DNA of 64,000 nucleotides from Fusibacter paucivorans (GTDB lineage Bacteria > Bacillota > Clostridia > Peptostreptococcales > Acidaminobacteraceae). Shown here in pieces: positions 1,331 through 52,304 of the stretch. The stretch lies in assembly GCF_018390735.1 (NCBI RefSeq), contig NZ_JAHBCL010000016.1, forward strand, positions 1 to 64,000, in the 5' to 3' direction. Under the pieces are notes generated by a model. It searched no databases and was not told the origin of the DNA. It saw only the letters and a program-made list of their open reading frames with translations. Position numbers and translations under genes: made by a program. Position 1 is the first letter of the stretch. Each line of letters starts with the position of its first letter.

Positions 1331-1510
1331 TACCAGAAGGTGTCGACGGTGGCTGATTACGATTATCACGTAATGTAATGATGAGATGCGAAATGCCTTT
1401 GTCCGATAATGAATGCGTCGGGAGGAACAGCATCTTTTTGTTTTTTGAGGAAAGCTTGTAATGTTTTGATATTGGTGTGATTGCATCTGATTTTTTTGCT
1501 GACGGGATGG

Positions 1511-1516
1511 TATAAT
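1511..1516 (+). promoter_or_regulatory. Candidate -10 box for the PHP gene
   Basis: TATAAT at 1511-1516, 29 bp before the preferred start codon. No good -35 hexamer sits at 16-18 bp spacing, so the promoter is tentative. The rest of 1331-1530 shows no gene. Confidence 0.35.
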
Positions 1517-1539
1517 AGGGAATAGAAAGGATGGTTGCC

Positions 1540-2274
1540 ATGAAACTCAAGGGAGATTATCATATGCACTCTAAATACAGCGGTGATTGTAAAAATGAGA
1601 TGGAAGCAGTGGTTAAACAAGCCATTGAAATGGGACTGTCGGAGATTGCCATCACAGATCATGGGCCGATGCATTCAGGGTATGGCATCAAGGCATCACA
1701 GTATCCGGAGATGCGTGCAGAGATAGATGCTTTAAGGCAAAAGTATCCGCAAATTAGTATTTTGCTTGGTTTAGAGGCCAACCTTATCGGAACAGCTGGG
1801 GAGATTGACCTAACGGATACCATGCAACCACTTTGTGATTGGCTTAACGTTGGATATCATTTTGGCAGCAATCTCGGTCGTGATATGGGACTCCATATTC
1901 GCAATTTTTTAAGTAAGTTCAGCAAGCGCATTTATGAACGCGCCAAGAAAGACAACACAATGGCCATGATCAATGCGATGCGCAAACATTCGATTCGCAT
2001 GCTGACACACCCTGGTGCCAAAGGCCCTGTCGATATTGACGCTGTAGCGCGCGTTGCGGCAGAAACGGGTACGATGCTTGAAATCAACAACTCACATGGT
2101 CATTTGACAGTAGAAGAAATTAAAATTGCGATGCAGTACGATGTCGTTTTTGTGGCAAACAGTGATGCACACCGCATTGAACGAATCGGCATCGTCACGG
2201 ACAGCATTCAGCGCATTGTCGAAGCGGGGTTGCCGACTGACCGCATATACAATCTGGATGACGCATGCGTTTGA
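1540..2274 (+). CDS. PHP-domain phosphoesterase (YcdX-like)
   Basis: A 244-residue metal-dependent phosphoesterase of the PHP superfamily. Metal ligands are visible as the N-terminal HxH (H8, H10), the TDHG motif, a central THPG and a C-terminal NSDAHR. This gene commonly precedes rapZ and yvcK in Clostridia, as here. An ATG at 1531 is also in frame, but AAAGG at 1527-1530 directly abuts it, whereas it lies 9 nt before the ATG at 1540, so 1540 is preferred. The substrate is unknown; histidinol phosphatase-like or phosphodiesterase activity is possible. Confidence 0.85.
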   Translation: MKLKGDYHMHSKYSGDCKNEMEAVVKQAIEMGLSEIAITDHGPMHSGYGIKASQYPEMRAEIDALRQKYPQISILLGLEANLIGTAGEIDLTDTMQPLCDWLNVGYHFGSNLGRDMGLHIRNFLSKFSKRIYERAKKDNTMAMINAMRKHSIRMLTHPGAKGPVDIDAVARVAAETGTMLEINNSHGHLTVEEIKIAMQYDVVFVANSDAHRIERIGIVTDSIQRIVEAGLPTDRIYNLDDACV

Positions 2275-2469
2275 AACCATCACGGCTGTATCAATGATCA
2301 CGTACTAAAACAGCGGCGCTTTACAATAGTCGTGTTCTGTAGCAGCATTGTTTTGCAGCAATTCTGTTTTCTACCGCTGTGTTTACGGAAAGGCTCCGTG
2401 TATGCGCTGTGTTATATTGAAATAAAATGCCAATAGAACCCATGATTAAGTTTGATAGGAAGGTGTCAC

Positions 2470-3321
2470 GTGAATTTTATTATCATCTCCGGACAGTCCG
2501 GTGCAGGCAAAAGTCAAGCGAAAAAGGTCTTTGAGGACTTGGGGTATTATTGCATTGACAATTTACCGCCGTCGCTCATTCCCAACTTTGTGGAGCTGGT
2601 AGAGCAAAACTCTGAAGGTATTCACAACATTGCTCTTGTCATTGACATTAGAGGCGGCAGATTTTTTAAAGATCTGGAAGATCATCTCGAAGGGCTCAAA
2701 CAGCGGCATTACGAGTATAAGATATTTTACTTCGAAGCCAACGATGATATTCTGGTGAAACGGTTTAAAGAAACGCGGCGAACGCATCCGCTTGACCCAA
2801 CAGGTCGCATTGAAGATGCATTGGCTTCTGAAAAGCAGATTTTGGAGACGCTAAAAGATCAGGCACACTATGTGATCAATACGTCCAATCTGACACATGC
2901 CGAGTTAAAAGCAGAAATTACACGGTATCTTGACTTGTCAGAAGGCGATCAAAGTCTGAATCTGACGATTATGTCCTTTGGGTTTAAAAAAGGACTGCCG
3001 CTCGATGCGGATTTTGTCTTTGATGTGCGTTTTTTACCAAATCCTTATTATATTGAAGATTTGAAGCATCGTACGGGCAATGAAGCGGCGGTGCAGTCTT
3101 ATGTGATGGGATTTGAAGAGAGTCGCCAGCTGATGACGCATATTCAGTCACTGCTTGACTTTGCCATGCCCGGCTTTATGAGGGAAGGGCGCAGTCAGTT
3201 GGTGATTGCCATAGGCTGTACCGGCGGACAGCATCGGTCTGTGACCTTTGCGAACTTACTAGCCGCTTATTACCGGGAACAGCATTATCCCGTCAAATGT
3301 GTTCACAGAGAACTGGATTAG
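2470..3321 (+). CDS. rapZ: RNase adapter / nucleotide-binding protein RapZ
   Basis: A 283-residue RapZ (YvcJ) protein. The P-loop GQSGAGKS is at residues 8-15, and the C-terminal half carries the conserved GCTGGQHRSV signature. In Gram-negatives RapZ presents GlmZ to RNase E; in Firmicutes YvcJ binds and hydrolyses nucleotides and its role is less clear. The best start is GTG 2470 with AGGAAGG about 7 nt upstream; an in-frame TTG at 2452 is less likely. It is followed by glmR, the standard neighbour. A region with no gene and no clear signal (about 195 nt) separates it from the PHP gene. Confidence 0.93.
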   Translation: MNFIIISGQSGAGKSQAKKVFEDLGYYCIDNLPPSLIPNFVELVEQNSEGIHNIALVIDIRGGRFFKDLEDHLEGLKQRHYEYKIFYFEANDDILVKRFKETRRTHPLDPTGRIEDALASEKQILETLKDQAHYVINTSNLTHAELKAEITRYLDLSEGDQSLNLTIMSFGFKKGLPLDADFVFDVRFLPNPYYIEDLKHRTGNEAAVQSYVMGFEESRQLMTHIQSLLDFAMPGFMREGRSQLVIAIGCTGGQHRSVTFANLLAAYYREQHYPVKCVHRELD

Positions 3322-3397
3322 ACAAGATGACAATGGTATAAGGGCTGAATAAAACGTAAGACGATTTGAAGAAAATCTATAAAAGGAGATGCAACAC

Positions 3398-4390
3398 TTG
3401 AAAATAGTAGCAATAGGCGGTGGGACGGGTTTATCCATTCTCCTAAGGGGGCTTAAGGAAGTTTCACAAGAGATTACAGCAGTTGTGACCGTTGCCGATG
3501 ACGGCGGTGGCTCGGGTGTATTGAGAGAAGACCTTGGCATGCTGCCGCCGGGTGATATTCGCAACTGTATTTTGGCGCTGGCCAATACCGAACCTATTTT
3601 ACAGGACTTGCTGCAATACCGTTTCTCAGAAGGTCGTCTGAAAGGCCAAAACTTCGGCAATTTAATGATTGCCGCTATGCAAGGAATTTCAGAGGGGTTT
3701 GAAGATGCGATTCGGAAAATATCAGATATTTTCGCCATCACTGGGAAAGTACTGCCGGTTTCTGTCGTTCCAATGGTGCTCTATGCACAACTGACGGATG
3801 GCATCCACGTTAAAGGCGAATCAAATATTCCGCTGGAAGTCGTTAAACGCGGCGCAGGTGTCAAGAAGATCTGGGTTGAACCGCACGATGTGGAGAGCGG
3901 CGATGAAATTATTGAGGCGATTTTAGCGGCGGATGTGGTAGTGCTGGGACCAGGTAGTTTGTTTACCAGTGTTATTCCCAATATGCTCGTCGATAATCTG
4001 ATGGCGGCGCTTAATGCAACCCATGCCAAGCGCGTCTATATCTGCAACATTATGACGCAGCCGGGTGAGACCGACCACTTTACCGTTGGTGATCATGTCA
4101 AGGCGCTTTTTACCCATACAAAACTCAAAGCACTTGATGCCGTCTTTATCAACGAAGGAACGCTGACGGAAGAACAGATGGCGCGATACTTAAAAGAAGA
4201 TTCTAATCTTGTTGCCTTCACGCCTGAATGTGAGGCGATGCTGGCTAAAATAGGCATAGATGTCTATAAAGATGACTTAATCGAAGTGGTTAAAGGCTAT
4301 GTCAGACATAATGCGGGATGCATTGCAATGAAACTGGAGGCGATCTGCGAACGTGCTTATACGCCGATTAGTCATGATCTAAAAGTGTAA
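3398..4390 (+). CDS. glmR: Gluconeogenesis factor GlmR/YvcK
   Basis: A 330-residue member of the YvcK/GlmR (CofD-like) family, which binds UDP-sugars and balances carbon flow between glycolysis and peptidoglycan precursor synthesis. The GGGTGLS loop is at residues 7-13, followed by the family motifs VADDGGGSG and PGDIRNC. The start is most likely TTG 3398: AAGGAG at 3383-3388 abuts the in-frame ATG 3389 but is correctly spaced for the TTG. It sits between rapZ and whiA as in most Firmicutes, except that tnaA and a Nudix gene intervene here. Confidence 0.93.
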   Translation: MKIVAIGGGTGLSILLRGLKEVSQEITAVVTVADDGGGSGVLREDLGMLPPGDIRNCILALANTEPILQDLLQYRFSEGRLKGQNFGNLMIAAMQGISEGFEDAIRKISDIFAITGKVLPVSVVPMVLYAQLTDGIHVKGESNIPLEVVKRGAGVKKIWVEPHDVESGDEIIEAILAADVVVLGPGSLFTSVIPNMLVDNLMAALNATHAKRVYICNIMTQPGETDHFTVGDHVKALFTHTKLKALDAVFINEGTLTEEQMARYLKEDSNLVAFTPECEAMLAKIGIDVYKDDLIEVVKGYVRHNAGCIAMKLEAICERAYTPISHDLKV

Positions 4391-4520
4391 ACAGTGCAAA
4401 TATCTTGCTGTGTCTATTTTTTGCCCCTCAATGATTTGCATTCCGACGGTATGATGATAAGAAGAACATCCATAAAAAGGCTATCAGTAGATGCTATTAT
4501 TGTATACAAGAGAGATTGGC

Positions 4521-4549
4521 TTCAAAATAAACTGGAAATCCGATATAAT
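4521..4549 (+). promoter_or_regulatory. Candidate promoter of tnaA
   Basis: TATAAT at 4544-4549 with TTCAAA at 4521-4526 (17-bp spacing, 4/6 match to consensus). Transcription from here would give a leader of about 130 nt before the tnaA start. I see no Trp-containing leader peptide after the inferred start site. Confidence 0.5.
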
Positions 4550-4619
4550 AAGGATGACCACGAAATTTTGAAGCCATAAAAATTTTTTGGAAGCTGAGAA
4601 GGAATGACATTGTGATTTG

Positions 4620-4642
4620 CAAAGGCGTCTAGCGATGCCTTT
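4620..4642 (+). promoter_or_regulatory. Hairpin in the tnaA leader
   Basis: AAAGGCGTC and GATGCCTTT pair as a 9-bp stem with one G-U pair around TAGC. Only four T residues follow, so it is a weak terminator at best. It could be an attenuator or a stabilising stem in the tnaA leader. The strong Shine-Dalgarno AAGGAGG follows it. Confidence 0.4.
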
Positions 4643-4684
4643 TAAAAATTCACCTTATATCATCACATAAGGAGGATTAATTTT

Positions 4685-6067
4685 ATGGCAAAGCGAGTAC
4701 CAGAACCATTCAGAATCAAGATGGTGGAAAGCATGAGCATTATTCCAAAGGAGGTCAGAGCACAGCGTCTCGTCGAAGCGGGCTACAATCCATTTGCATT
4801 GCGCGCTGAGGATATCTACATCGACCTCTTAACGGACAGCGGCACAGGCGCTATGAGTGACAGACAGTGGGCCGCACTGATGCTTGGCGACGAATCCTAT
4901 GCGGGGAGTCGATCATTCTATAAGCTTGAAGCGGTGGTTCAAAAAATTACGGGTTACAAGTACATCATACCATCACATCAGGGAAGGGGTGCCGAGCAAG
5001 TTGTCTTACCTAACGTCATTAAGAAAAAAGGCGATTACGTGTTGAACAACATGCACTTTGACACCACCATGGGCCATGTGCTCATCGCTGGCGGCAAGCC
5101 GGTAAACCTCATTCATGAAAAAGCCTATCATACAGAAGTCTATGATGACTTCAAAGGCGATTTTGACTTGGAAATGTTGGAAAACTTTATCGTCGATAAA
5201 GGCGTGGAGAACATATCCTGTCTTATTATGACTGTGACATGCAACTCCGCAGGTGGTCAGCCTGTTTCCATGGCGAATATGAAAGCGGCTAGTGAAATTG
5301 CCCATCGTCATGGGCTCAAGGTCTTTATTGACGCAGCGAGGTACGCAGAAAATGCTTATTTTGTTAAAACGAGAGAAAAAGGCTATGAAGATAAAACCAT
5401 TCTCGAAATAGCACAGGAGATGTTCGGCTATGCAGACGGTCTTATGATGAGTGCTAAAAAAGACGGGATTGTCAACATGGGCGGCCTTATCGGTATTAAG
5501 GACGATGAAGACCTCTATAATGCTTGTCGTTCAACGGTTGTACCAATGGAAGGCTTTCCGACTTACGGCGGTCTTGCAGGCAGAGATATGGAAGCACTTG
5601 CCGTCGGACTCGAAGAGGGACTTGATTTTGATTACCTTGAATACAGAATTGGTCAAGTCAAGTATTTAGGCGATCGGCTGAGAGAAGCCGGCGTTCCGAT
5701 TCAATATCCAACGGGTGGACATGCGGTTTTCGTAGACTGCAAGAAACTTTGCCCTCAAATCCCATTTGACCAGTTTCCGGCACAGGCTGTCTGTAATGAA
5801 GTTTATATTGACAGCGGTGTGAGGGCTGTTGAGATTGGTTCTTTCTTGCTTGGCAGGGATGATGAGACTGGTGATCCGCTGGAATCACCACTTGAACTGA
5901 TGCGGTTAACCATTCCAAGACGCGTTTATACGAACGATCATATGGATTATGTTGCTGACGCAGTCATCGAGGTGGCAAAGAAAGCAGATACGCTCAAAGG
6001 TTTTACTTTTGACTATGAACCAAAAGTGCTGAGACATTTTACGGCGAAGCTTAAACCCGTTGAGTAG
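4685..6067 (+). CDS. tnaA: Tryptophanase (L-tryptophan indole-lyase)
   Basis: A 460-residue PLP enzyme of the beta-eliminating lyase family, converting tryptophan to indole, pyruvate and ammonia. The PLP lysine lies in SAKKD (K259). Three positions separate tryptophanase from tyrosine phenol-lyase and all point to tryptophanase: Asp126 in HFDTT (Thr in the phenol-lyase), Ile384 in EIGSF (Arg there) and His451 in LRHFT (Phe there). The gene has its own candidate promoter and a strong terminator and lies between glmR and whiA, an unusual place. I see no TnaC-like leader and no adjacent tryptophan permease. Confidence 0.93.
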
Positions 6068-49696: not shown

Positions 49697-50599
49697 ATGT
49701 TTATATGGGATTTTGTAATGGGTGATGTCATGGACCAGATTATTGACTGGTTTTATGGTCATCTTGTAGGTTTTCTGGGAGATTTCTTTGCCCAGATGGG
49801 CAACATGGGTGTTGAGCTTTTTGATATGACATGGGTGCAAAGCATTGTGCTTTTTTTCACTTATCTTGCTTGGATGCTGTATGTGGTGGGGTTAGTTGTG
49901 TCTTGCTTTGAAACAGGAATTGAGTATCAATCAGGAAGAGGAAGTGTCAAAGATGCTGCGCTTAATGCTATTAAAGGATTCATGGCAGTGAGTCTTTTCA
50001 CAACTGTACCAATCGAACTCTATAAGTTATCAGTAACTCTACAAAGCAGTTTAACCGCAGGCATTACGGGTCACAATAGCGGTGTTGGTGAACTTGCAAA
50101 TGCAATCATTGGAGAACTGGGAAACATCAGTGACGTTTCAAGCGTAGGCAGTTCAGGTGTGTTCGGTGGACTTTCTACGATAACGAGTCCTATTATGGCA
50201 CTTTTTATTATTATCCTCATGGGATATGCAGTCGTGAAAGTGTTCTTTGCAAACCTTAAAAGAGGTGGAATCCTGCTCATACAGATAGCCGTAGGAAGTC
50301 TTTATATGTTCTCGGTTCCAAGAGGATACATTGATGGATTTATTCAGTGGATAAAGCAAATCATTGGTCTTTGCCTCACGACTTTTTTGCAGGCAACAAT
50401 ACTGACTGCAGGCCTAATGGTGGTAAAAGATAACGCTCTCCTCGGTCTTGGACTCATGTTATCAGCAGGAGAAGTACCAAGAATCGCGGGTGCCTTTGGT
50501 CTAGATACATCAACAAAAGCAAATGTGATGAGCGCGGTTTACACCGCTCAAGCAGCCGTTAATACAACTAGAACGATTGCACAGGCTATACCAAAATAG
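49697..50599 (+). CDS. VirB6/TrbL-like conjugation channel protein
   Basis: A 300-residue polytopic membrane protein with about six TM segments (near residues 45-70, 90-110, 165-190, 195-215, 225-250 and others). It fits the VirB6/TrbL class of the T4SS inner-membrane platform found with VirB4 in Gram-positive elements. The N-terminus is amphipathic and starts within AGGAGG range. It is followed by the two-part methyltransferase and the PrgI-like gene. Confidence 0.72.
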   Translation: MFIWDFVMGDVMDQIIDWFYGHLVGFLGDFFAQMGNMGVELFDMTWVQSIVLFFTYLAWMLYVVGLVVSCFETGIEYQSGRGSVKDAALNAIKGFMAVSLFTTVPIELYKLSVTLQSSLTAGITGHNSGVGELANAIIGELGNISDVSSVGSSGVFGGLSTITSPIMALFIIILMGYAVVKVFFANLKRGGILLIQIAVGSLYMFSVPRGYIDGFIQWIKQIIGLCLTTFLQATILTAGLMVVKDNALLGLGLMLSAGEVPRIAGAFGLDTSTKANVMSAVYTAQAAVNTTRTIAQAIPK

Positions 50600-50621: not shown

Positions 50622-50657
50622 ATGTTACGACTGGCGCAAAGGGAGGCGTTGCCATGA
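50622..50657 (+). CDS. 11-codon leader ORF coupled to the methyltransferase gene
   Basis: ATG 50622 with GGGAGG 11-16 nt upstream opens an 11-codon frame whose TGA overlaps the ATG of the methyltransferase gene at 50654 (ATGA-type overlap). It probably only serves translational coupling, or is a remnant. Too short to judge from sequence alone. Confidence 0.3.
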   Translation: MLRLAQREALP

Positions 50658-51316
50658 TTACTATGGGAAGCCTCTTTGATGGAATAGGAGGTTTTCCACT
50701 TGCAGCAGTCCACAATGGTATTGTTCCATTGTGGGCAAGTGAAATTGAGAGTTTTCCAATTGAGGTCACAAAAATAAGATTTCCTGAAATGCTTCACGTA
50801 GGGGATATTACAAAACTTAGTGGAAATACCCTTCCTGTTGTGGACATTATTTGTGGAGGATCTCCTTGTCAGGATTTATCTGTTGCAGGACAAAGAGCTG
50901 GACTTGCCGGTGAGCGATCAGGGCTTTTCATGGAACAGATAAGGATAACGAAAGAAATGAGGATTGAAGATGGAAAACGAGGCAAAACAAATGACCTTGT
51001 GCGACCTCGATTCTTCGTTTGGGAAAACGTCCCTGGAGCATTTTCATCAGCAGAAGGAGAAGATTTCAAAGCAGTTCTTGAGGAAACCGCAAGAATTGCT
51101 GACAACAACATACTTATACCTCGACCTCCGGGAGGGGTATGGAAATCTGCTGGGTGCATTTTGGGAAGTCAATTCTCCGTTGCTTGGAGAGTTCTCGATG
51201 CTCAACACTGGGGTGTCGCCCAACGACGCAAAAGAATCTTTCTTGTCGCAGATTTTGGAGGATACACCGCTCCCAAAATATTATTTGAGCAAGACCGCTT
51301 GCTTAGGAATACTTAG
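50654..51316 (+). CDS. C5-cytosine methyltransferase, catalytic part (motifs I-VIII)
   Basis: A 220-residue protein with the front half of a cytosine-5 DNA methyltransferase: motif I (GSLFDGIGGF), motif IV with the catalytic Cys in PCQ (C72), motif VI ENV (124-126) and motif VIII (QRRKRIF, 190-196). It stops before the target-recognition region and motifs IX-X, which are supplied in another frame by the overlapping gene at 50970. The two chains would together make a full enzyme, as known for the split methyltransferase M.AquI. The overlap is about 350 nt. Confidence 0.88.
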   Translation: MITMGSLFDGIGGFPLAAVHNGIVPLWASEIESFPIEVTKIRFPEMLHVGDITKLSGNTLPVVDIICGGSPCQDLSVAGQRAGLAGERSGLFMEQIRITKEMRIEDGKRGKTNDLVRPRFFVWENVPGAFSSAEGEDFKAVLEETARIADNNILIPRPPGGVWKSAGCILGSQFSVAWRVLDAQHWGVAQRRKRIFLVADFGGYTAPKILFEQDRLLRNT

Positions 51317-52304
51317 AAGGTCGAAAGCTAGAGATAAAGAACTACCATTTCAACTTAAAAAGGCTCTCGAAATTCAGGCAGGTATCGCTAATTTGGATCA
51401 AGATTTATCGAACAATTTGGCAACAGAACTGAGATCATATCACATCAATCAACGAAACGAGGGCATCGATCTAAATGGAATATCAGGTGCGTTAATGGCA
51501 ACTCAAAATATGCAGATGCAGACCTTTATTACAGAACCTATGATTTGCCTTAACGACCAAGGTGGTAATCGGATGGATATCACTGAGAATATTACATCCA
51601 CTTTGAGAGCTTGCATGGGAGGACATCTGCCAATAGTGACTCAGCGTTACAAAGAGGGTGTTGAATTAGAAAAGGAAGAAAATGAACAAGCGCTTCTATT
51701 CGATAATCATGCGAAGGACTGTAGATACACTGGCCCACTAAATGTAGCACCAACTATTGCAGCAACATACGGGACAGGTGGTAATAATGTTCCTTTGGTT
51801 TCAAAACACATGAATGACGAAAGTTATTGTATCGCAAGTAACATCATCAATCGGCAAGATAAGAATGGTGGAAATGGTTGTGGCTTTCAAGAAAATATAA
51901 GCTATACCTTGACTACAGCAGACATCCATGCTGTATGTTCAATCCCGAAAGCCTACCAGAATATCGTTGGAGCTTTGTGTGTAGGTGATGAAAAAGGAAT
52001 TGGAAATCAATATGTGAGTCAAGATAAATGCATAATAGACTATCAAGAGATGACATCTGAGAAAAAAGAGGATACTGAAATTGATAAAAGACTATCCTCA
52101 ATTAATCTTGTTCGGAGATTAACCCCACTAGAATGTGAAAGACTTCAAGGCTTTCCAGATGGGTGGACAGATATACCAAAAGCATCAGATAGTCCGAGAT
52201 ATAAAGCTCTCGGAAATAGTGTAGCAGTTCCATGTGTAGATTTTATTATGCATGGAATTGCTTGTTTTTTGAGAAAAATCAGACAAGAAGAGGAGGAGCG
52301 ATAG
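50970..52304 (+). CDS. C5-cytosine methyltransferase, C-terminal part, overlapping frame
   Basis: A 444-residue protein. Residues 1-115 are encoded in the +1 frame inside the catalytic gene and carry a segment found in phage methyltransferases (SFGKTS at 16-21, YLDLR, LLGEFSMLN, SQILED, PKYYLS, GILRR). The middle (about 120-375) is a repeat-rich variable region, probably for target recognition. The end has motif IX (RRLTPLECERLQGFP, from 382) and motif X (GNSVAVP, 415-421). ATG 50970 has GAGG 7-10 nt upstream; TTG 50964 is possible. It cannot be active alone. Confidence 0.85.
   Translation: MENEAKQMTLCDLDSSFGKTSLEHFHQQKEKISKQFLRKPQELLTTTYLYLDLREGYGNLLGAFWEVNSPLLGEFSMLNTGVSPNDAKESFLSQILEDTPLPKYYLSKTACLGILRRSKARDKELPFQLKKALEIQAGIANLDQDLSNNLATELRSYHINQRNEGIDLNGISGALMATQNMQMQTFITEPMICLNDQGGNRMDITENITSTLRACMGGHLPIVTQRYKEGVELEKEENEQALLFDNHAKDCRYTGPLNVAPTIAATYGTGGNNVPLVSKHMNDESYCIASNIINRQDKNGGNGCGFQENISYTLTTADIHAVCSIPKAYQNIVGALCVGDEKGIGNQYVSQDKCIIDYQEMTSEKKEDTEIDKRLSSINLVRRLTPLECERLQGFPDGWTDIPKASDSPRYKALGNSVAVPCVDFIMHGIACFLRKIRQEEEER

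Follow-up and report, generated by a model that had tools for sequence, protein, structure and literature searches.

The pair of overlapping open reading frames at 50654-52304 of the window (that is, of the whole stretch of 64,000 nucleotides of Fusibacter paucivorans DNA that was analysed) probably encodes a two-chain C5-cytosine DNA methyltransferase (C5-MTase) of a conjugative element, with a second chain that would have grown from a cryptic, out-of-frame small protein; judging from sequence, we give this reading a probability of about 0.7. Motifs I-VIII, for AdoMet binding and catalysis, would come from the alpha chain (ORF1). The beta chain (ORF2), starting at its own ATG inside ORF1, would consist of an N-terminal tail, a module of the form LSxILE..KYYLS..GILRR, the target-recognition region (TRD) and motifs IX-X. 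Taken together they would yield the motif order of canonical enzymes (I-VIII / module / TRD / IX-X), and the two presumably join into a single enzyme that would label the DNA of the element, perhaps as protection against host restriction during transfer. The parts are as follows:

49697-50599, + strand: upstream neighbour, a TrbL-type conjugation protein (TrbL_5; PF19511, 1.9e-148)
50654-51316, + strand: ORF1, putative alpha chain, 220 aa, C5-cytosine methyltransferase motifs I-VIII (PF00145, 1.9e-35)
50864-50872, 51023-51031 and 51221-51241, + strand: PCQ, ENV and QRRKRIF, respectively, all in ORF1
50958-50962, + strand: TGAGG, whose TGA (50958-50960) is the stop after which the +1 frame opens, and which also contains GAGG
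50970-52304, + strand: ORF2, putative beta chain, with nested domain, TRD and motifs IX-X (PF00145, 1.9e-11, residues 284-429)
50970-51316, + strand: dual-coding overlap of ORF1 and ORF2, 347 nt from the ATG or 353 nt from the TTG (50964-51316)
50988-51002, + strand: QMTLC, degenerate, at the place of the clamp-binding-like motif of part of the relatives (consensus from excerpts of PMC12309361)
51243-51380, + strand: core module LSQILEDTPLPKYYLSKTACLGILRR...ALEIQ in the ORF2 frame, the best-conserved part of the nested domain, directly after motif VIII
52113-52157, + strand: motif IX (RRLTPLECERLQGFP) in ORF2, by motif reading and PF00145
52200-52235, + strand: motif X (YKALGNSVAVPC) in ORF2, by motif reading and PF00145

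The preliminary description had seen here a methyltransferase split into two genes that overlap out of frame by about 350 nt, with motifs I-VIII (PCQ and ENV among them) in the upstream frame and IX-X in the other, and so it proves: PF00145 (123 bits over profile positions 2-129 for ORF1, 44 bits over 200-321 for ORF2) and motif reading agree, YKALGNSV being read in ORF2. PCQ and ENV with motifs I-VIII in ORF1, and motifs IX and X in ORF2, are the sequence marks of a C5-cytosine DNA methyltransferase. ORF2 occupies the +1 frame relative to ORF1, open from 50961 to its stop at 52304. The first candidate start is a TTG at 50964, followed by the ATG at 50970; a Shine-Dalgarno-like GAGG (50959-50962) lies 7 nt 5' of that ATG, and the letters TGAGG also serve frame-0 residues E-M-R of ORF1. 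A DUF3852 gene with a weak TrbC match is also near, and it is from these adjoining conjugation genes that we take the pair to be part of a conjugative element. At E 0.001 ORF1 matches nothing else in the 4.4 Mb assembly (96 contigs).

Is so long a dual-coding overlap peculiar to this locus? It had been thought rare; in this family it is not, the nested +1 gene being found also in single-chain relatives, the dmt gene of phage P1 included. Searched against translated sequence, residues 1-137 of ORF2 matched 109 phage records. In the first seven annotated records examined, the match is the +1 frame of one long, single-chain, methyltransferase-like CDS (five of the seven are named as a methyltransferase or methylase, the other two as "hypothetical protein"), and the domain is present too in an eighth, unannotated record (L001). 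To keep the second frame from guiding the selection, loci were collected with a query confined to the ORF1 residues that precede the overlap. (A note on method: the viral, genome, P1-type and second-family locus sets are each the best 80 of 560-592, the frequencies drawn from them apply to near relatives of the queries, and kinship among sequences inflates all sequence counts.) Within these sets of the best 80 of 560-592, the +1 frame is open for at least 120 codons in 71 of 80 viral loci (of the remaining nine, four run into a contig end, two stop short of ENV and three have an early stop) and in 71 of 80 genome loci (nine being cut, broken, interrupted or relocated); with the P1-type query, one of whose 80 loci was left out of the analysis, it is found in 77 of 79 readable loci, and the remaining two retain the core. 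L030, L047, L056, L310 and L311 retain the core although their +1 frame meets an early stop; in the first three, which are the early-stop viral loci, the nested domain still reaches 111, 111 and 133 bits. Phage P1 itself (AF234172) has the nested +1 frame at 66710-67198 (163 codons). In many relatives that are single-chain in frame 0, the +1 frame runs to some 135-165 codons and has its own start. Among other C5-MTase loci found blind to the second frame, the +1 element is present in one of 22 (L191).

Homologues with a single chain in frame 0 thus exist, yet they keep the second frame, and dual coding stands. Since the single-chain relatives keep the +1 gene, the overlap is older than the split. 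The chains are indeed parted between motif VIII and the TRD, but the overlap is not what the split produced: comparison of the relatives shows that the +1 gene did not arise in that way, and in the window's lineage the nested gene and the C-terminal half form one open frame. The split state is found in 44 of 68 non-redundant genome rows, with ORF2 frames of split members open for 252-602 codons. On a 91-row tree the split and single states need seven changes without four unclear rows and nine with them, and the starred branches force at least six, counts that give no direction.

That both frames of the overlap look real had been noted for this locus, and two tests on the relatives bear this out: 1) In a synonymous-shuffle test the frame-0 protein was held fixed, synonymous codons were reshuffled and +1 stops were scored (121 of 161 sequences were taken, 40 being lost to a strict motif regex). 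The +1 frame is stop-free in 57 of 60 viral relatives (95%, against 15% expected) and in 56 of 60 genome relatives (93%, against 10% expected), both drawn from the best 80 of 560-592, and no shuffle-tested relative has an open +2 frame. For the window alone the chance of an open +1 frame is 0.11, which is not significant; the case rests on the relatives. Ordinary C5-MTase controls have the +1 frame open in 0 of 23, with 6.65 stops observed against 6.14 expected; left out of this control set were L197, which is of the window's own type, and L191, L498, L500, L501, L502 and L504, already known as carriers of the +1 element. 2) Third positions of frame 0 are the second positions of +1 codons, and codon-position rates were compared over 1454 pairs from 143 non-redundant genes (13 with a frame 0 shorter than 205 codons were dropped; the pairs are not independent, hence no P-values). 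Rates at positions 1/2/3 are.165/.091/.524 before the overlap,.296/.201/.372 inside it and.343/.170/.249 in its last 20 codons; the lowered third and raised first positions recur in single-chain genes (369 pairs) and in split genes (456 pairs), each analysed apart. For the P1-type family (2099 pairs, from the best 80 of 560-592) the third-position rate falls to.146 at the core. The codon-position test finds constraint in both frames of the overlap, and the comparative evidence shows the overlap to be dual-coding and its +1 frame to be under protein-level constraint, beyond chance.

The family also offers a natural experiment, the same domain being met overlapped, fused and on separate DNA. In five relocated loci (L260, L261, L257, L253 and L476; the clade is one of Oscillospiraceae, and the first four group at 98% SH-aLRT) the nested domain lies downstream of ORF1, at the head of ORF2, and the open frames of ORF1 and ORF2 overlap by 19-56 nt or not at all. 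The order of the ORF2 chain is the same in all five: nested domain first, then TRD and motifs IX-X. In the four that group together, third-position rates are ordinary both in ORF1 codons 107-216 (.550) and in the domain on its own DNA (.574-.596). The relocated domain is still recognisable except for its SFGKTS part, and because SFGKTS is missing from these copies outside the overlap, it is best taken as largely a by-product of the frame-0 codons for WENVPGAFSS. The complete "phage-type domain" first proposed (SFGKTS...PKYYLS...GILRR) has to be trimmed accordingly: LSQILE..KYYLS..GILRR is what is conserved.

A nested-protein HMM run over all frames of 475 loci gave 452 matches of at least 30 bits, of which 443 overlap a methyltransferase match in another frame; an earlier run over 369 loci found the offset to be +1 in 687 of 689 pairings. 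(Another note on method: many of these loci were fetched as methyltransferases and some contigs are repeated, so that the overlap with methyltransferases is partly built in; the fair test of the association is that of loci fetched by the nested protein itself. L253 was non-overlapping in the 369-locus run and overlapping under the looser cut of the 475-locus run.) The nine matches that do not overlap comprise two interrupted mycobacteriophage genes, and the rest (L017/L104/L398/L260, L257 and L261/L263) are one arrangement, that of the L260/L257/L261 group, which L253 and L476 share.

What, then, is the nested domain? AlphaFold2 predicts its N-terminus at low pLDDT, its core and C-terminus as confident helices (pLDDT 89-98). 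Two Foldseek runs against the PDB recognised no fold (best E 4.9 and 2.2), two second looks with VIA-align gave no match reaching Z 2, and a search of the PDB by sequence gave two weak matches for the whole domain (best 0.078) and none for the core. BFVD returned 48 matches. Two had E-values under 0.01, A0A8S5LZA8 (1.6e-6), which is a cytosine methyltransferase of a phage, and G1FGG9 (0.0022), a Thibault protein of 81 aa; the others were at 0.78 or worse. Pfam matched one of 125 nested proteins, weakly; 57 of the 125 match a single PHROGs family, phrog_16143, named only "DNA methyltransferase".

The core HMM finds its match in frame, just after motif VIII, in L503 (2.2e-7), L187 (0.001), L199 (0.0036) and L181 (0.011), and in the +1 frame in L498, L191, L500, L501, L504 and L502 (E 5e-6 to 8e-4); these E-values refer to a small set, the other C5-MTase loci in six frames, and L503 itself had been found via the nested profile. 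When the core was aligned by hhalign with 14 full-length enzymes it was placed after motif VIII with E 0.0015 and a probability of only 16.5%; with canonical segments picked by pattern, which biases the result, the probability was 96.6%. Homology of the core (LSxILE..KYYLS..GILRR) to the stretch that canonical enzymes carry in frame from motif VIII to the TRD is likely, though not certain. Scanning 196 genomes of the class yielded 26 core matches at E 0.01. Fifteen of at least 44 bits lie in C5-MTase +1 frames (14 of the window's family, and the more distant L518), as do six weaker ones (L519, L520, L521, L523, L528 and L530); the frame of the match in L517 also encodes part of the methyltransferase, L526 and L529 are canonical in-frame matches, and L522, L524 and L525 are unrelated or unconfirmed.

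Weak +1 matches led to a second methyltransferase family, of which 76 of 80 viral loci (the best 80 of 560-592) were analysed. Its +1 frame is stop-free in 78% (n=76) against 2% expected in the shuffle test. The element L.DIL..KY.LS, sought by regex in the same best 80 of 560-592, stands in the +1 frame of 55 of the 76 and in frame 0 of one, a low count since the regex missed L557; at the element's 15 codons the third-position rate is.233 (p3/p1 0.52; 389 pairs) against.41-.55 before it.

Part of the nested proteins carry in their N-terminus a motif that resembles the pentapeptide of beta sliding-clamp ligands (QL[S/D]LF or QxxLF), the consensus being given as QL[S/D]LF in excerpts of PMC12309361. 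Counted against synonymous shuffles in sets that are again the best 80 of 560-592, with patterns chosen after examples had been seen and among related, not independent sequences, the strict form QL[ST]LF occurs in 21 of 72 members of the window's group (0.1 expected) and a loose form in 41 of 72 (1.9 expected); the motif occurs in 16 of 59 members of the second family (0.4 expected), and the strict form in 6 of 71 viral single-chain members (0.1 expected). P1-type nested proteins have the strict form in 0 of 77 and the loose one once (2.0 expected), so that there is enrichment in three of four groups of relatives; the strict form is absent in 65 of the 71 viral single-chain members and in 51 of the 72 of the window's group. 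Relocated copies keep the loose form in four of five. The window's own QMTLC is without the F at the fifth position. Nested proteins that bear QL[ST]LF may bind the clamp, and might then tether the enzyme to the DNA sliding clamp.

In the unsplit relatives the same start would yield a free small protein of about 135-165 aa, which may act as a subunit that supplies the module in trans; the single-chain frame-0 proteins could also be complete enzymes that need no partner. One can extend the argument, tentatively and at somewhat less than even odds: many C5-MTases of phages and mobile elements, P1 Dmt included, would be unrecognised two-subunit enzymes, in which an out-of-frame small beta supplies the VIII-TRD segment in trans and, in several lineages, a clamp tether, the gene for it being old, common to several phage families, and at times fused or moved out of the overlap.

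The most durable of the other explanations grants that the +1 protein is real and translated, and gives it a job of its own (clamp-based replication or anti-defence, for example) in place of that of a methyltransferase subunit, the C-terminal fusion being a by-product. The unsplit frame 0, which looks like a complete enzyme with its C-terminal motifs, suits this explanation, as do the enrichment of the clamp-like motif and the N-terminal part of the nested protein, for which the searches run here found no methyltransferase likeness. Against it stand the resemblance of the core to the canonical in-frame segment that follows motif VIII, the fact that the domain outside the overlap still heads a chain of TRD and motifs IX-X at 5 of 5 loci, and the matches of the nested-protein searches, which fall on or beside C5-MTases, bar the three weak ones that are unrelated or unconfirmed. 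We consider it unlikely.

The two-chain reading needs a start inside ORF1. In the best 80 of 560-592 of each set, an ATG precedes ENV by 10 codons in 61 of 71 viral nested frames and by 19 codons in 72 of 77 P1-type ones; a Shine-Dalgarno-like match of at least 4 bases precedes a possible start in 69 of 71 viral, 68 of 72 genome and 23 of 77 P1-type frames, a count made without a null. (The 72 genome frames count the window, and the 71 and 72 include the relocated L017 and L260, in which the +1 frame is open without the nested domain.) The nested start is probably used, because the split, in its 44 genome rows, works only with an internal start; in the window, translation would begin at the ATG at 50970.

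Could ORF1 instead be joined to ORF2 by programmed +1 ribosomal frameshifting near CTT AGG (51302-51307), with no internal start at all? The sequence CTT AGG A, shortly before the ORF1 stop, resembles the CUU AGG C of yeast Ty1 (as quoted in part of PMC5009743), and a +1 shift there would connect motifs I-VIII to the TRD half. The tail of ORF1 is not conserved, however, and programmed frameshifting at CTT AGG was rejected on that account: among split loci the end of frame 0 ranges from 16 nt ahead of the first base of the GILRR codons to 167 nt past it. In the unsplit members, moreover, such a shift would produce a chain that lacks both the TRD and motifs IX-X, relatives keep the start codon, and the ORF2 of the relocated L476 has its own ATG behind AAGGAGG. 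This makes a frameshift a highly improbable account of the pair.

Still less probable is that the +1 frame is an untranslated by-product of frame-0 conservation, or the fossil of an old frameshift. Frame 0 does force SFGKTS (from WENVPGAFSS) and KYYLS (from KILFE), the relocated copies confirming this for SFGKTS, but third positions are slower than first ones (p3/p1 0.50-0.73), the +1 frame is kept open against the synonymous null, and the domain survives on separate DNA; on these three grounds the by-product was rejected, and the last of them also makes an RNA element unlikely. Least probable of all is a decaying pseudogene, a single-chain enzyme broken by frameshift in the window: single-chain relatives do exist at up to 91% N-terminal identity (L203, L205), but the split state and its long ORF2 frames are widely shared, and the IX-X block of 32 split members (those, out of 46, in which a regex recognised motif IX in ORF2) evolves at ordinary purifying rates (.167/.079/.562).

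The closest precedents for the two-chain enzyme are M.AquI (CYCGRG) and M.EcoHK31I (YGGCCR), the latter likewise a C5-MTase of two polypeptides. To our knowledge no nested gene is known for M.AquI. In M.EcoHK31I the gene of the beta subunit (176 aa) reportedly lies inside the alpha gene, in another frame; if so, M.EcoHK31I is the precedent that comes closest to having a nested beta chain of this kind. M.AquI resembles the window's pair in having two chains cut at the same place: its large subunit holds motifs I-VIII and its small subunit IX-X, with the split between VIII and the distal variable region. It differs in that the relevant passages of PMC3404938 mention no long dual-coding overlap. 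In M.EcoHK31I motif IX is in the small polypeptide and the large one keeps TRD and motif X (same passages of PMC3404938), unlike the window, where ORF1 ends after motif VIII and motif X is in ORF2. The ShiLan element, an HNH endonuclease hidden out of frame in a phage methylase (PMC11855218, in excerpt), is akin to the nested gene in its placement, but it is a mobile insertion of disjunct distribution, whereas the frame described here is conserved and overprints the methylase's own motifs.

In prokaryotes few long overlapping genes have been fully established (abstract of PMC9927249), and this one lies in a textbook enzyme family and is present in a model phage, P1. A study of conserved frame transitions names no DNA cytosine methyltransferase cluster in the portions seen (PMC3711429), and the literature searched, which comprises portions of PMC3439449, PMC6456624, PMC4549789, PMC3404938, PMC3711429, PMC11855218, PMC5009743 and PMC12309361, yielded no account of a gene nested within the methyltransferases of this kind. 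Two-chain C5-MTases are already known, but the wide spread of the conserved nested frame appears to be new as far as those portions go. Should the small protein prove to be a subunit, the "single-gene" methyltransferases cloned from these families would have been two-gene clones that went unnoticed, and the specificity and replication coupling of such enzymes would need to be looked at again. P1 Dmt is single-chain, annotated as bifunctional and "perhaps" C5, and has the same nested +1 frame as the window, from which it differs in being unsplit and without a clamp-like motif. The P1 record itself carries no nested CDS annotation; one P1-like record (L286) annotates the nested frame, as a hypothetical protein.

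Putative tyrosine recombinase genes, judged by eye, lie within or against the methyltransferase gene at two loci of relatives:

L280 (G087), 1451-5047, minus strand: three putative tyrosine recombinase genes, inserted in ORF1, the alpha-chain frame
L476, 2-2090: putative tyrosine recombinase genes, immediately 5' of the methyltransferase remainder

In L476, one of the forms with the nested domain relocated to its own DNA downstream of ORF1, what remains of the methyltransferase after the recombinase-like genes runs from the ENV motif onward; conserved motifs of the methyltransferase gene may therefore be favoured insertion sites.

L280 is a near relative in which ORF1 is broken directly 3' of the PCQ codons, the remainder of the split pair being open downstream of the insert.

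Inserts of other kinds are as follows:

L223, 4572-6452: putative reverse-transcriptase/maturase gene whose end is HNH-like, resembling a group II intron on visual inspection
L282, 1285-2808, and L284 (mycobacteriophages Schatzie and Thibault): HNH endonuclease gene inside the methylase (record annotation)

The intron-like insert of L223 breaks ORF1 within the ENV motif, between WEN and V; L204 stops at this same point of the gene, near its position 3872. In both mycobacteriophages the nested domain is located 3' of the HNH insert, and in Thibault it falls inside an annotated hypothetical protein; the annotators of the Schatzie record state that the intron boundaries are not determinable.

The nested +1 frame of dmt, the single-chain methyltransferase gene of phage P1, is itself annotated in one P1-like phage record:

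L286 (ON470617), 2501-2992: nested +1 frame of dmt, "hypothetical protein" (record annotation)

That record annotates no dmt CDS over the nested frame.

Single-chain relatives close to the window (genome loci L203, L211, L213 and L215) are 785-799 codons long and have in common a segment, CLTPWDVQSRRIF, 3' of the nested stop.
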